DNA from: a virus
IMG/VR virus record: IMGVR_UViG_3300030906_000047
Span: 1-32,463 of that record
Length of the DNA stretch: 32,463 nucleotides
Direction: 5' to 3' (one strand)
Made by a program: the position numbers and the translations under genes. The notes under the pieces were generated by a model. The model was not told the origin of the DNA. It saw only the letters and a list, made by a program, of their open reading frames with translations, and did no database searches. Positions 13,219 to 16,299 of the stretch are shown piece after piece (position 1 is the first letter of the stretch; the number at the start of each line of letters is the position of its first letter).

Positions 13219-13982
13219 GCGAGCGCTCCCAACAATCCAATGCCGGAACTCCCGAGGCCGAATAGCCCCCCCATTGCCGCGTTGCTTTGCGCGACCTGTT
13301 GTTGATAATTCTGCTCGACGATGCCCGCGACATTCGTCGGCGCGACGCCGGTTTGGGAGGTCGGCGCCAGCGTGCCAACGCCGGGCTGAGAAACTTGGCT
13401 TCCCGTTTCGAGCGAAGAAAGGGCGTTGAGAGGTTCGTTATATTCTGACGTAAGCGCGGATTGAGCCTGCGATGCGTCCTGCCCGAAAGCGGACGCATAG
13501 GCGTTGTCCTTTAGAAGTCCCTCGTTCGAAATTGCCGTGGTATAGCCGGCGCTCCCCGGCGCGAGACCTTGGTCGTAGGCGGTCTGCTGGGTCTGCGCAT
13601 CGTTGCGCGCCCATTGGGGATCCATCGTGAATTCGTTTTCCTTGTCGAGTTGCCCTTGCAACGCCGAATAGGAAAGGTCGAGAGGATTCGAGAGAGTCGA
13701 GGAGGCCGTGTTTTCGAGCTGACCGGCGAGATTTGCGCTTCCCGTCGCATTCGCGATCGTTTTATCGGAAAGAGCTTGTTCGTCTGGCGCAAGCGTCGTC
13801 GTCGCTGTTTCTTCCGGCGCGCCGCTCGAACTCGTCCCGGTCTGATTGTAGGTAATGTTGCCGTAAGGCGTGATCTGCGAAACGTCGTTAAGCTGGCTCT
13901 GATAATCGGCCGTCTGCTCGTTCGATTGCGTTTGCGCCTGGGCGGTCTGATACGGGTCGGGAGGGCTCGGCTGGCTGATCAT
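13215..13982 (-). CDS. Conserved podovirus ejection/tail protein
   Basis: 255 residues. It begins ISQPSPPDPYQTAQAQTQSN and continues with QLNDVSQITPYGNITYNQTG, a pattern typical of proteins encoded next to SLT-domain internal virion proteins. The middle is polar and helical (Gln/Ala/Ser-rich), and the C-terminus is a Gly-rich hydrophobic tail (MGGLFGLGSSGIGLLGALA) that might contact membrane. No enzyme motif. Its first 95 bases overlap the end of the GNAT gene. A GAGG site lies ~9 bases before ATG 13982. Confidence 0.7.
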   Translation of the reverse strand: MISQPSPPDPYQTAQAQTQSNEQTADYQSQLNDVSQITPYGNITYNQTGTSSSGAPEETATTTLAPDEQALSDKTIANATGSANLAGQLENTASSTLSNPLDLSYSALQGQLDKENEFTMDPQWARNDAQTQQTAYDQGLAPGSAGYTTAISNEGLLKDNAYASAFGQDASQAQSALTSEYNEPLNALSSLETGSQVSQPGVGTLAPTSQTGVAPTNVAGIVEQNYQQQVAQSNAAMGGLFGLGSSGIGLLGALA

Positions 13983-14385
13983 TCGAAAGCCTCAAGATTT
14001 TCTGCCTTGAGGCGAGGAGGCCTAGAATGATGCCGTCCTCTCGGGGAAAGCGATCTTTCATGACGCCCTCGGGCTCAAAGCCGAGTTTCAGAAGGCTTCT
14101 GATCGCCCGATCATTAGAAATTGGGGTTACGCACGTCACCCGCGCAACGGCGAGCTTGCCAAACACATAGTTCGCGATATTCCGCATAGCCCACATCGGC
14201 CATGGCTTCAACACTGTGCACGATAAATCGACGTTGATCCGATCGAAGTTGTTGAAAACCAGCGCGCCGGCCAATTCTTCGCCGTCGAGGACGACAAGGC
14301 CGACGAATGGCTCAGAAAAAACGAGGCCAAGAGGGACGCCGATCGCGCGGGCCGCGCGCGCATTGTCTTGCGAAACGGAGAACAT
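13888..14385 (-). CDS. GNAT-like N-acetyltransferase domain protein
   Basis: 165 residues. FVGLVVLDGEELAGALVFNN gives two strands of a GNAT sheet. VARVTCVTPISNDRAIRSLL and KLGFEPEGVMKDRF match the late GNAT helix-strand unit (neighbour relation between acetyl-CoA helix and GF-E-G strand). Such proteins occur among the virion genes of many podoviruses, but the substrate is unknown. The C-terminal ~30 residues overlap the next gene in another frame. A GAAGGA site lies 13 bases upstream of ATG 14385, rather far. It is preceded by the tRNA-like element in the only sizeable gap of this part of the operon. Confidence 0.75.
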   Translation of the reverse strand: MFSVSQDNARAARAIGVPLGLVFSEPFVGLVVLDGEELAGALVFNNFDRINVDLSCTVLKPWPMWAMRNIANYVFGKLAVARVTCVTPISNDRAIRSLLKLGFEPEGVMKDRFPREDGIILGLLASRQKILRLSNDQPAEPSRPVSDRPGANAIERADGRLSEPA

Positions 14386-14404: not shown

Positions 14405-14526
14405 ATCGCTTTGGGGCAGCATGGTAGCCCGCCGCTTGTCGGAGCCGAGCGCTATGACGGGGTCGCTACCCGTTAATATCTCGGGAGGGGTGCAACCCTC
14501 GCGCCGGTTCAAATCCGGCAGGCGAT
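14405..14526 (+). tRNA. tRNA-like element with oversized anticodon region
   Basis: ATCGCTT (14405-14411) pairs with AGGCGAT (14520-14526) as a 7-bp acceptor stem with one G-T pair. TG then a D-arm GGGC-AGCATGGTA-GCCC follows (14414-14430), and the T-arm is GCCGG-TTCAAAT-CCGGC (14503-14519). Between D- and T-arms there are 72 bases, against ~23-40 in normal tRNAs. They can form up to three hairpins, including TGACGGG-GTCGCTA-CCCGTTA and GAGGG-GTGCAA-CCCTC, the last like a long variable arm. I cannot assign an anticodon. No CCA is encoded. It lies opposite to the surrounding genes and fills the gap between two of them. Confidence 0.5.
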
Positions 14527-14529
14527 TCT

Positions 14530-16299
14530 TCACCCGAGCACGTTCCCCTCTTGGAACATCACGTCGAAGGCAGAAATCCGCTGATCGGGCAGCGTCGTTC
14601 CCAAATTCGTCGTCAACTGGAAAACAACCCCGATCGCGACGCCTTCGCCCTGCGCGTCCTGCCATGTCGAATAGGGGACGAGCGCGCCAGACCAGACGGC
14701 TTGATCCCACTTCGCCACGTCCCAAAGCGCGCCGGCAAGCGCCGTCGAGGGGTTCGGGCCAGCCGGAATCGTGGTGTTGAATTCGACGTTGATCATGATT
14801 TGCGGCGTGACAGGTTGCGCGGCGAGAAAATAGGGCTTCACCAACACAACCTGCTTTTGCGAGGCTGGGCGCCCGAGATAGGAGAACGCCATCATGATGG
14901 TGGTGGTGTAATTATTTAGGCCGGCGTCGCAGCCTCCCGTCTCGCCCTGCCAGACGTTGCCAGCCGAATCCCCGTAAAACATATTGTCGTTGAAAATGCC
15001 GAAGCAATTGGCGTCCCATCCGAGATAGCGCGCCCAGGCGCCGGTGCGGGAATTGGCGACGAATTGCGTGAAATCCGAGGCATTTTCCTTCGGCAGATTG
15101 ATGATCGCCATCGATTGCAGGGGCCACGGCACGATTTGCCAGCCCGAGATACCGGCCCGGGCAATGACAGCATCACGCCAGGCGGGCGCAATCGGCTTCG
15201 TCACGGCGATGTTTTCGAGGGCGACTTGGTCGAGGGTCATGACCTTCGACATCGGGACAATGCCGTCCTCGGTCATAATGAGGAGGTCGCCGCCCGCGGG
15301 CATGGTGCAACGCGGGCCGAGCGGTCGCGCGATGGTATATTGGCCGACCAGCGTCCAGCTTGTATCGGCGGGGCTCGCGCCGTTGTAGAGAAGAACCTCG
15401 CCTTCGGACGTGATGAACACAAAGCCGAGATATTGCCCGACGCCGGAATTCACGGCCCATTGGGCCATCGCAATGAGATATCCTCCCTTGAGGCAAAATG
15501 GCGCGAGGGGAAAGAGCGTCGCCGGGCCGCCGATCGCGGCGAGGCCGAGATAATAGCAATTCAAGGTTTGGCCGTCGGCGAAATACAAATGCCCGCGATA
15601 TTGCGCGACGGCGGAAAATCCGACCCCGGAATATCCGGTAATCGGCGCATTCTGATAAAAAGTGAGCGATTCCGCCCCGGAGCCCGTCGCCGCGATGCTG
15701 ATGACGATGCTCGTGTTCGGATTGATGCTGACGATCGTCGCGCCCGCGGGAATGTTCGTGCCCGAAAGCGCCATTCCGACTTGCAGATTCGCGGTCGACG
15801 CCATGAGAATCGTCGTCGTCGCATTGAGCGTCCCGGAAAGGACGAAGGTGCGATTCCATCCGGTCCCGTCGAAGATTTGAACAGGATCGACCCCGTCGAC
15901 GGCGACCAGATAGCTCCCCCCAAACCCGGCAAACTGCACATATTGCAGAAAGCTGCTGTTGAGGCCGGTGACCTTCGGCGCCCCAACGGCGCCCGCGCTC
16001 GAAATATCGTAAATCTCTTTGTTGCAGACGGCGAAAAACTTCGAATTGACCCCGCTTACCCAAGGCATGATGGACGAGACGGCGAAGGATCCCATCCCGC
16101 TCGCCCACAATTGCGAGCCTCCCCGCACGCGAACGTAGTCAAGTTGGGGAAATGCGTTGTCGAAAACGATTGCGGTTTTGGGGGGAGGCTGCGCCTGGTT
16201 ATCGCCGACATACCAACCCGAGGTCGGGGCCGGCATATTGAAAACCTCGGAGACCTGCGCGCCCGCATCCTCCATTTGCTGCTTGCGGCGCCGGCTCAT
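14530..16299 (-). CDS. Tail nozzle / tubular tail protein (beta-propeller-like)
   Basis: 589 residues. The N-terminus SGWYVGDNQAQPPPKTAIVF, then repeated beta-strand units (MPWVSGVNSKFFAVCNKEIY, YLVAVDGVDPVQIFDGTGW, GHLYFADGQTLNCYYLGLA, AGGDLLIMTEDGIVPMSKV), is typical of the large tail-tube or nozzle proteins of podoviruses downstream of the adaptor gene. It would form the distal tube that channels DNA. Residues ~150-215 are an inserted small beta-module (ALSGTNIPAGATIVSINPNT), also present in two other virion proteins here. The stop overlaps no gene; the tRNA-like element begins 3 bases beyond it on the other strand. Confidence 0.8.
   Translation of the reverse strand: MSRRRKQQMEDAGAQVSEVFNMPAPTSGWYVGDNQAQPPPKTAIVFDNAFPQLDYVRVRGGSQLWASGMGSFAVSSIMPWVSGVNSKFFAVCNKEIYDISSAGAVGAPKVTGLNSSFLQYVQFAGFGGSYLVAVDGVDPVQIFDGTGWNRTFVLSGTLNATTTILMASTANLQVGMALSGTNIPAGATIVSINPNTSIVISIAATGSGAESLTFYQNAPITGYSGVGFSAVAQYRGHLYFADGQTLNCYYLGLAAIGGPATLFPLAPFCLKGGYLIAMAQWAVNSGVGQYLGFVFITSEGEVLLYNGASPADTSWTLVGQYTIARPLGPRCTMPAGGDLLIMTEDGIVPMSKVMTLDQVALENIAVTKPIAPAWRDAVIARAGISGWQIVPWPLQSMAIINLPKENASDFTQFVANSRTGAWARYLGWDANCFGIFNDNMFYGDSAGNVWQGETGGCDAGLNNYTTTIMMAFSYLGRPASQKQVVLVKPYFLAAQPVTPQIMINVEFNTTIPAGPNPSTALAGALWDVAKWDQAVWSGALVPYSTWQDAQGEGVAIGVVFQLTTNLGTTLPDQRISAFDVMFQEGNVLG

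Follow-up and report, generated by a model that had tools for sequence, protein, structure and literature searches.

A tRNA-like element in a phage gene junction, probably a non-decoding tRNA mimic from a scattered family of phage-borne RNAs

The DNA analysed here, called the window throughout, is a stretch of 32,463 nucleotides (nt) covering positions 1 to 32,463 of the IMG/VR virus record IMGVR_UViG_3300030906_000047. On its + strand, spanning exactly 14405-14526, it holds a single copy of a transfer RNA (tRNA)-like element, in which 72 nt, including the G after the D-arm, separate the D- and T-arms. We consider it very likely that this element has a tRNA-like structure and belongs to a family, and probable that it encodes a non-decoding tRNA mimic of this phage-borne RNA family. 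The element fills the gap between two open reading frames (ORFs) of the - strand, 13888-14385 and 14530-16299, and is antisense to both. The original prediction, made from the letters of the window, had described it as filling the space between a nozzle and a GNAT gene, antisense to the late genes, and this is confirmed with a gap of 144 nt. The features of the locus are:

13888-14385, - strand: GNAT-like gene (PHROG 4470, E-value 1.8e-14)
14405-14411, + strand: acceptor stem, 5' strand ATCGCTT, 7 of 7 pairs with 14520-14526, one of them G-U
14412-14413, + strand: U8 and G9 of the tRNA core, read from the sequence
14414-14430, + strand: D-arm GGGC-AGCATGGTA-GCCC, 4 of 4 pairs, covariation in relatives
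14432-14442, + strand: X hairpin CCG-CTTGT-CGG, an extra helix between the D-arm and the anticodon-like arm, which pairs in relatives
14445-14484, + strand: long anticodon-like arm with 5 base pairs (bp), CCGAG/CTCGG, a small internal loop and a 9-bp stem, supported by covariation
14462-14468, + strand: 7-nt loop GUCGCUA of the long arm, from the alignments
14485-14500, + strand: variable arm GAGGG-GTGCAA-CCCTC, many compensatory changes in relatives
14503-14519, + strand: T-arm GCCGG-TTCAAAT-CCGGC, 5 of 5 pairs, canonical T-loop
14520-14526, + strand: acceptor stem, 3' strand AGGCGAT, pairing with 14405-14411
14530-16299, - strand: late gene, the nozzle gene of the original prediction; PHROG 5107, labelled amidase (E-value 3.5e-122)

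The + strand of the element reads ATCGCTT-TG-GGGC-AGCATGGTA-GCCC-G-(72 nt)-GCCGG-TTCAAAT-CCGGC-AGGCGAT. Acceptor, D- and T-arms are present together with the core tertiary nucleotides of a tRNA: the D-arm has A14, G15, G18G19, and A21, and the tertiary pairs U8-A14, G15-C48, G18-U55, and G19-C56 are all possible judging from the letters. A 5-bp anticodon stem with a 7-nt loop after base 26 and one assignable anticodon were not found in the element. CCA is not encoded, and position 14527 can form a G-U pair with 14404, the bases 73 and -1 of tRNA numbering.

A covariance model, which was built on four relatives with the window excluded, located the element with the same ends at 102.4 bits (E-value 2e-19), and the runner-up place in the window obtained 11.5 bits. 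A descriptor made of acceptor, D-arm, and T-arm around a middle of 45-110 nt had the element as its single match in the window (15.5 of 16 points) and had no match when the window was shuffled 60 times with dinucleotides preserved. The shuffles and the covariance-model score rule out a chance origin. The coordinates, the three arms, the GG in the D-loop, the TTCAAAT loop, and the spacing of about 72 bases had all been read correctly in the original prediction, as sequence, descriptor search, and covariance model agree. The element is not called by ARAGORN run without introns, nor by Rfam at gathering thresholds, where it also stays below the threshold of the tRNA model RF00005; its top weak Rfam match is tRNA-Sec with 18.9 bits, below the gathering threshold. 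Transfer-messenger RNA (tmRNA) was not reported by ARAGORN or Rfam, nor by ARAGORN run at a low threshold on the element with its surroundings (300 nt).

A D-arm with a T-loop 59-89 nt further on was matched at least 120 times in viral contigs; many of the matches have a perfect 7-bp acceptor, and several unrelated kinds are represented. A locus that we label L158 has the middle of the window's element (GGAGCCGAG...GGGGTCGC...CTCGG) between different arms, and additional patterns yielded L189, L209, L210, L215, L228, L229, L230, and L069, which is the same as L227. The family thus comprises ten distinct members including the window, on unrelated phage contigs that are mostly metagenomic, and pattern-based scans undercount. 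L166, L167, L200-L208, L211-L214, and L216-L218 were rejected as chance pattern matches. Seven of the ten (window, L158, L189, L227, L228, L229, and L230) have the order of a tRNA with the series acceptor, D-arm, X hairpin, linker AG, long arm, variable arm, and T-arm. In these the X hairpin has 3-5 bp and a loop of 4-6 nt, the long arm has 5 plus 8-9 bp and a 7-nt loop that is mostly GUCGCNN, and the variable arm has 4-7 bp (4-10 bp across the relatives). A further tRNA-like element with a 56-nt middle, L071:798-903, scored 60.7 bits with our model R2 and is not counted among the ten.

In the alignment of the four tRNA-order relatives, window excluded, 22 of the 41 pairs contain double changes, compared to a mean of 10 in shuffles, and none of 500 shuffles was as high; if the structures are slid along this alignment the number drops to 0-7. 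Six of the seven acceptor pairs are affected, the X hairpin pairs as CCGC/GCGG, CCCT/AGGG, or CCCCC/GGGGG in relatives, and in the long arm the CCGAG/CTCGG helix contains swaps from A-U to U-A and from C-G to G-C, with double changes in the upper stem as well. A core alignment of six sequences, three of them the permuted members described below, has 95.8% of its cells paired and 7 double-change pairs, again with none of 500 shuffles as high, and parsing nine members by hand resulted in 377 standard pairs out of 389. The proposed six-helix structure is the unconstrained minimum-energy fold of L158, L189, L228, and L230. At the level of sequence comparison, this establishes a conserved tRNA-like elbow in the RNA of the + strand, which lacks a decoding arm and has been kept by selection. 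Neither of the two outcomes that the original prediction had named as speaking against it, namely no conserved structure in relatives and a covariance score below background, was obtained.

The remaining three members, L209, L210, and L215, are circularly permuted. They have the order core, T-arm, capped acceptor stem, U-G, D-arm, and second X strand, so that their ends lie in a long X stem (GATGACAACGGA/TCCGTTGTCATC), whose outer parts vary between phages with the pairing kept. A GNRA loop, either GAAA or GCAA, closes the acceptor stem (CGGTG-GAAA-CACCG, CGACAC-GCAA-GTGTCG, and CGGCG-GAAA-CGCCG). The open frames of L209 and L215 could suggest coding for protein, which is countered by the covarying stems and the long end stems. 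Because the same architecture occurs with its ends either at the acceptor or at the X stem, it appears that the three-dimensional fold is under selection rather than the position of the ends. To our knowledge only few tRNA mimics exist in bacteria, and the clearest case, YrlA, is circularly permuted. The YrlA sequences examined begin with the Y stem, continue with GGAAC, an anticodon-like hairpin, the T-arm, the capped acceptor, and the D-arm, and return to the Y stem. The tRNA-like part of YrlA is matched in Rfam by L210 with 33.3 bits and by the other two permuted members with 26.3 and 24.6 bits (threshold 69), and the three align to YrlA positions 30-81. Their long end stem carries UUGUCAUC (UUGUCGUC in YrlA), followed by GGAAC. 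The X hairpin of the window is a capped remnant or a counterpart of the extra helix of YrlA, which is a resemblance of architecture and not proof of descent.

The distribution of the element points to an insertion. Relatives of the late gene were found at 43 loci, and where the contigs reach the junction the downstream gene overlaps or starts within a few tens of bases. The corresponding junction of related phages, where the original prediction had proposed to look for similar elements, turned up none: it is absent from this junction in 30-odd relatives of the nozzle gene and present only in near-identical contigs, two in number and from other metagenomes, with at least 99.97% identity. Because the two flanking genes overlap in nearly all relatives, the 144 nt are, by sequence comparison, an insertion at a gene junction in the lineage of the window. 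Among named phages, Bradyrhizobium phage ppBjS10J-1 is the nearest at the DNA level. The GNAT-like ORF carries at its C-terminus (window 13888-13982) an extension that relatives lack, and 95 bases of the ORF are shared with the next gene.

The relatives of the element sit in other genes of other phages. Searching annotated phages and plasmids with the element returned nothing beyond pieces of the T-arms of ordinary tRNAs and short matches due to chance, and a pattern scan of bacterial genome contigs gave 10 chance matches, all without the arms. Our model R1 had no match in sets of 298, 385, and 399 bacterial genomes, which overlap, represent the order, class, and phylum around one chosen alphaproteobacterium, and were searched with strict filters and without a positive control. 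In the open-licence literature the family of scattered phage-borne RNAs is apparently undescribed. While tRNA mimics as a kind are known, the family, its architecture, and the dual permutation are new.

Among the other explanations, a selfish mobile element is possible, though we would not favour it: the element would be a short insertion that does not move autonomously, with a structured RNA that chiefly promotes the spread of the element rather than benefiting the phage. Exact direct repeats flank the elements in L209 (CCCGCACCGGG, 11 bp) and L215 (CCATGTGAGGGC, 12 bp), and within these contigs only 0.3-0.5% of randomly chosen positions have such repeats. At L209:4798-5301 the permuted element lies in frame and without stops inside a gene of which Rhizobium phage RHph_X3_9 has an uninterrupted homologue (QWY83400.1), and without the element the L209 gene aligns continuously to the RHph_X3_9 protein (37% over 98 positions). 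In addition, the window copy sits where the genes of relatives overlap, and the contexts of the members are unrelated. However, no flanking repeats were seen around L210 or the seven tRNA-order copies, a recombinase was not identified, the window holds one copy only, and the arms have diverged far with the pairing preserved, which speaks for long-term selection on the RNA. Mobility is supported for the permuted form and would only by extension apply to the form of the window. A mobile element and a mimic do not exclude each other. At L230:8331-9203 a tRNA-order element lies within an ORF of 290 amino acids whose frame is open throughout and for which a homologue search found none; the neighbouring ORF looks, by eye only, like a MuA-type transposase. 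It is conceivable, if rather speculative, that the family is a new class of mobile phage RNA with one fold and its ends at either of two stems, which inserts at junctions or into genes with 11-12-bp target duplications, perhaps via circular RNA, and which also serves as a tRNA decoy.

It is improbable that the element is a true bacterial Y RNA (YrlA) tethering Rsr, the Ro60 homologue of the host. Its topology is that of YrlA, to which the permuted relatives align as described above, but in the window form the site expected to bind Rsr consists of only the capped X hairpin of 3 bp, and the window is not matched by the YrlA model RF02553, whose gathering threshold is 69 bits. A TROVE/Ro60 gene was not found in the window or on the contigs of the nine relatives, which are incomplete, and the gene could also belong to the host.

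It is very unlikely that the element is a functional tRNA carrying an intron or another large insert, whose removal would give a working anticodon arm. ARAGORN with introns does call a tRNA-Ile(aat) with a 36-nt intron, and tRNA introns of phages have been reported in Lak megaphages (PMC6784885). But the intron model pairs the 5' strand of X with CUCGG, which fails in L227, L228, and L229, while the X hairpin pairs in all members, so that removing one segment does not restore a paired anticodon stem in all relatives. The predicted anticodons differ among the members (Ile, Cys, Thr, Thr, Leu, His, and Gln), and none of those tested obtains a CUA anticodon. The -1/73 pair is possible in six of the seven tRNA-order members, with 22 bp of stem in L227, leaving no clear free tRNA end; such pairing would argue against a 3' end of the tRNA type, but in the window it consists of a single G-U. 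A decayed host or phage tRNA gene would explain the missing usable anticodon, the isolated single copy, and the failure of ordinary tRNA finders, but is next to impossible given that all arms are perfectly paired, that compensatory changes occur in every arm across relatives, and that the conserved middle is unlike a tRNA. Of the three origins that the original prediction had offered, the degenerate tRNA and the tRNA with an insertion accordingly fall away, and the mimic with another job is supported by the conserved structure and the covariance score.

As a non-decoding mimic the element might work as follows. The RNA would be transcribed from the + strand, and its acceptor, D- and T-arms would form a normal tRNA elbow, through which host tRNA-binding proteins may recognise it. 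The place of the anticodon arm would be taken by the X hairpin, the 14-bp arm with the GUCGC loop, and the long variable arm, thus offering an anticodon-like hairpin unable to decode. By analogy, binding of a protein is the role that we think somewhat probable. The likeliest use would be to occupy or divert a tRNA-cutting defence nuclease, a tRNA-modifying enzyme, or PNPase, and a decoy directed at tRNA-targeting defence is suggested here only tentatively. This mechanism is guided by the tRNA-like domain of YrlA. YrlA is known to be a circular permutation of a tRNA (PMC11472068). The tRNA enzymes DusA and TruB use this domain as a substrate, with binding of PNPase also reported (PMC8394870), and it has been suggested that the domain competitively inhibits an anticodon nuclease (PMC7790460). 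Several observations weigh against a non-decoding mimic. A promoter scan gave nothing, and both the transcript and its binding partner are putative. The members have no partner gene in common and vary in context and in orientation to their neighbours, so that genomic context gives no pointer to function. The GUCGC loop is kept in eight of ten members but absent in L069/L227 and L230. Finally, folding of the RNA, another check proposed in the original prediction, gives the proposed structure for the four relatives named above, but the window sequence alone prefers a non-tRNA fold by 5 kcal/mol (-57.7 vs -52.7, tertiary contacts not counted).

If the RNA is a decoy, RNA mimicry joins the known answers of phages to tRNA-cutting defence. 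A single family in both orders amounts to a natural permutation experiment in both directions, in which the fold is separable from the position of the ends. Phage "tRNAs" beyond the standard length limits are under-annotated.

Other expanded tRNA-like genes were met in the scans. L140:4998-5115(-), L160:698-814(+), L070, L129, L062, L101, L103, L105, L151, L153, and L164 are tRNAs with an insert between the D-arm and a recognisable anticodon arm, the insert consisting of a hairpin ATCC-TGNNAA-GGAT followed by CAGCA or CTGCA. The carriers are phages, several of them larger than 300 kb, the genes often lie within tRNA arrays, and CUA, in L140, is among the anticodons. Many of these genes exceed the tRNA threshold of Rfam, and as a group they are apparently a second, separate kind of expanded tRNA. 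Another type, whose middle reads, for example, CGCTTTTTTCCCTGCAAAGGTGACGT..TGG..GGCTTACTT, was seen in L065 (five copies in one phage segment), L076:1736, and L084:10761. L089:3871, L110:5774, and L132:448 look like tRNAs whose anticodon loop contains another T-arm or perhaps even a small tRNA in full, an arrangement that has been reported for a tRNA-Thr of Lak phages (PMC6784885). Ordinary tRNA genes with CAT anticodon, unannotated in the records, are present in Erythrobacter phage R6L (KY006853.1, 61559-61631) and Pseudomonas phage PaMx74 (JQ067093.2, 3359-3430).

Compared to known RNA classes, the element shares with the tRNA-like domain of tmRNA the tRNA-like ends and the replacement of the anticodon arm by other RNA, but it has an intact D-stem, only 72 nt in between, and no tag frame. 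Like tRNAs (RF00005), and class II tRNAs in particular, it has acceptor, D-arm, T-arm, tertiary nucleotides, and a long variable arm; unlike class II tRNAs, it adds the X hairpin after base 26 and the 14-bp anticodon-like arm, and the -1/73 pair is possible in most members. The intron tRNAs of Lak megaphages (PMC6784885) are likewise carried by phages, exceed the length of a tRNA in their anticodon region, and escape detection under standard bacterial settings. In contrast to these, the element has no consistent assignment of exons and anticodon, and its centre is a conserved multi-helix structure and not a removable insert. YrlA (RF02553; PDB 6CU1) is similar in its tRNA-like module of T-arm, acceptor-like stem, and D-arm with the elbow nucleotides, which is present in the window, and in the extra helix between the D-arm and an anticodon-like hairpin with a 7-nt loop. 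The permuted order with capped acceptor is shared by L209, L210, and L215 only, whereas the window form ends at the acceptor and its X helix is a capped 3-bp hairpin instead of the long basal stem that binds Rsr/Ro60. The family further differs from YrlA in being phage-borne without an Rsr gene found nearby, and in having the 14-bp arm with its GUCGC loop and the long variable arm.
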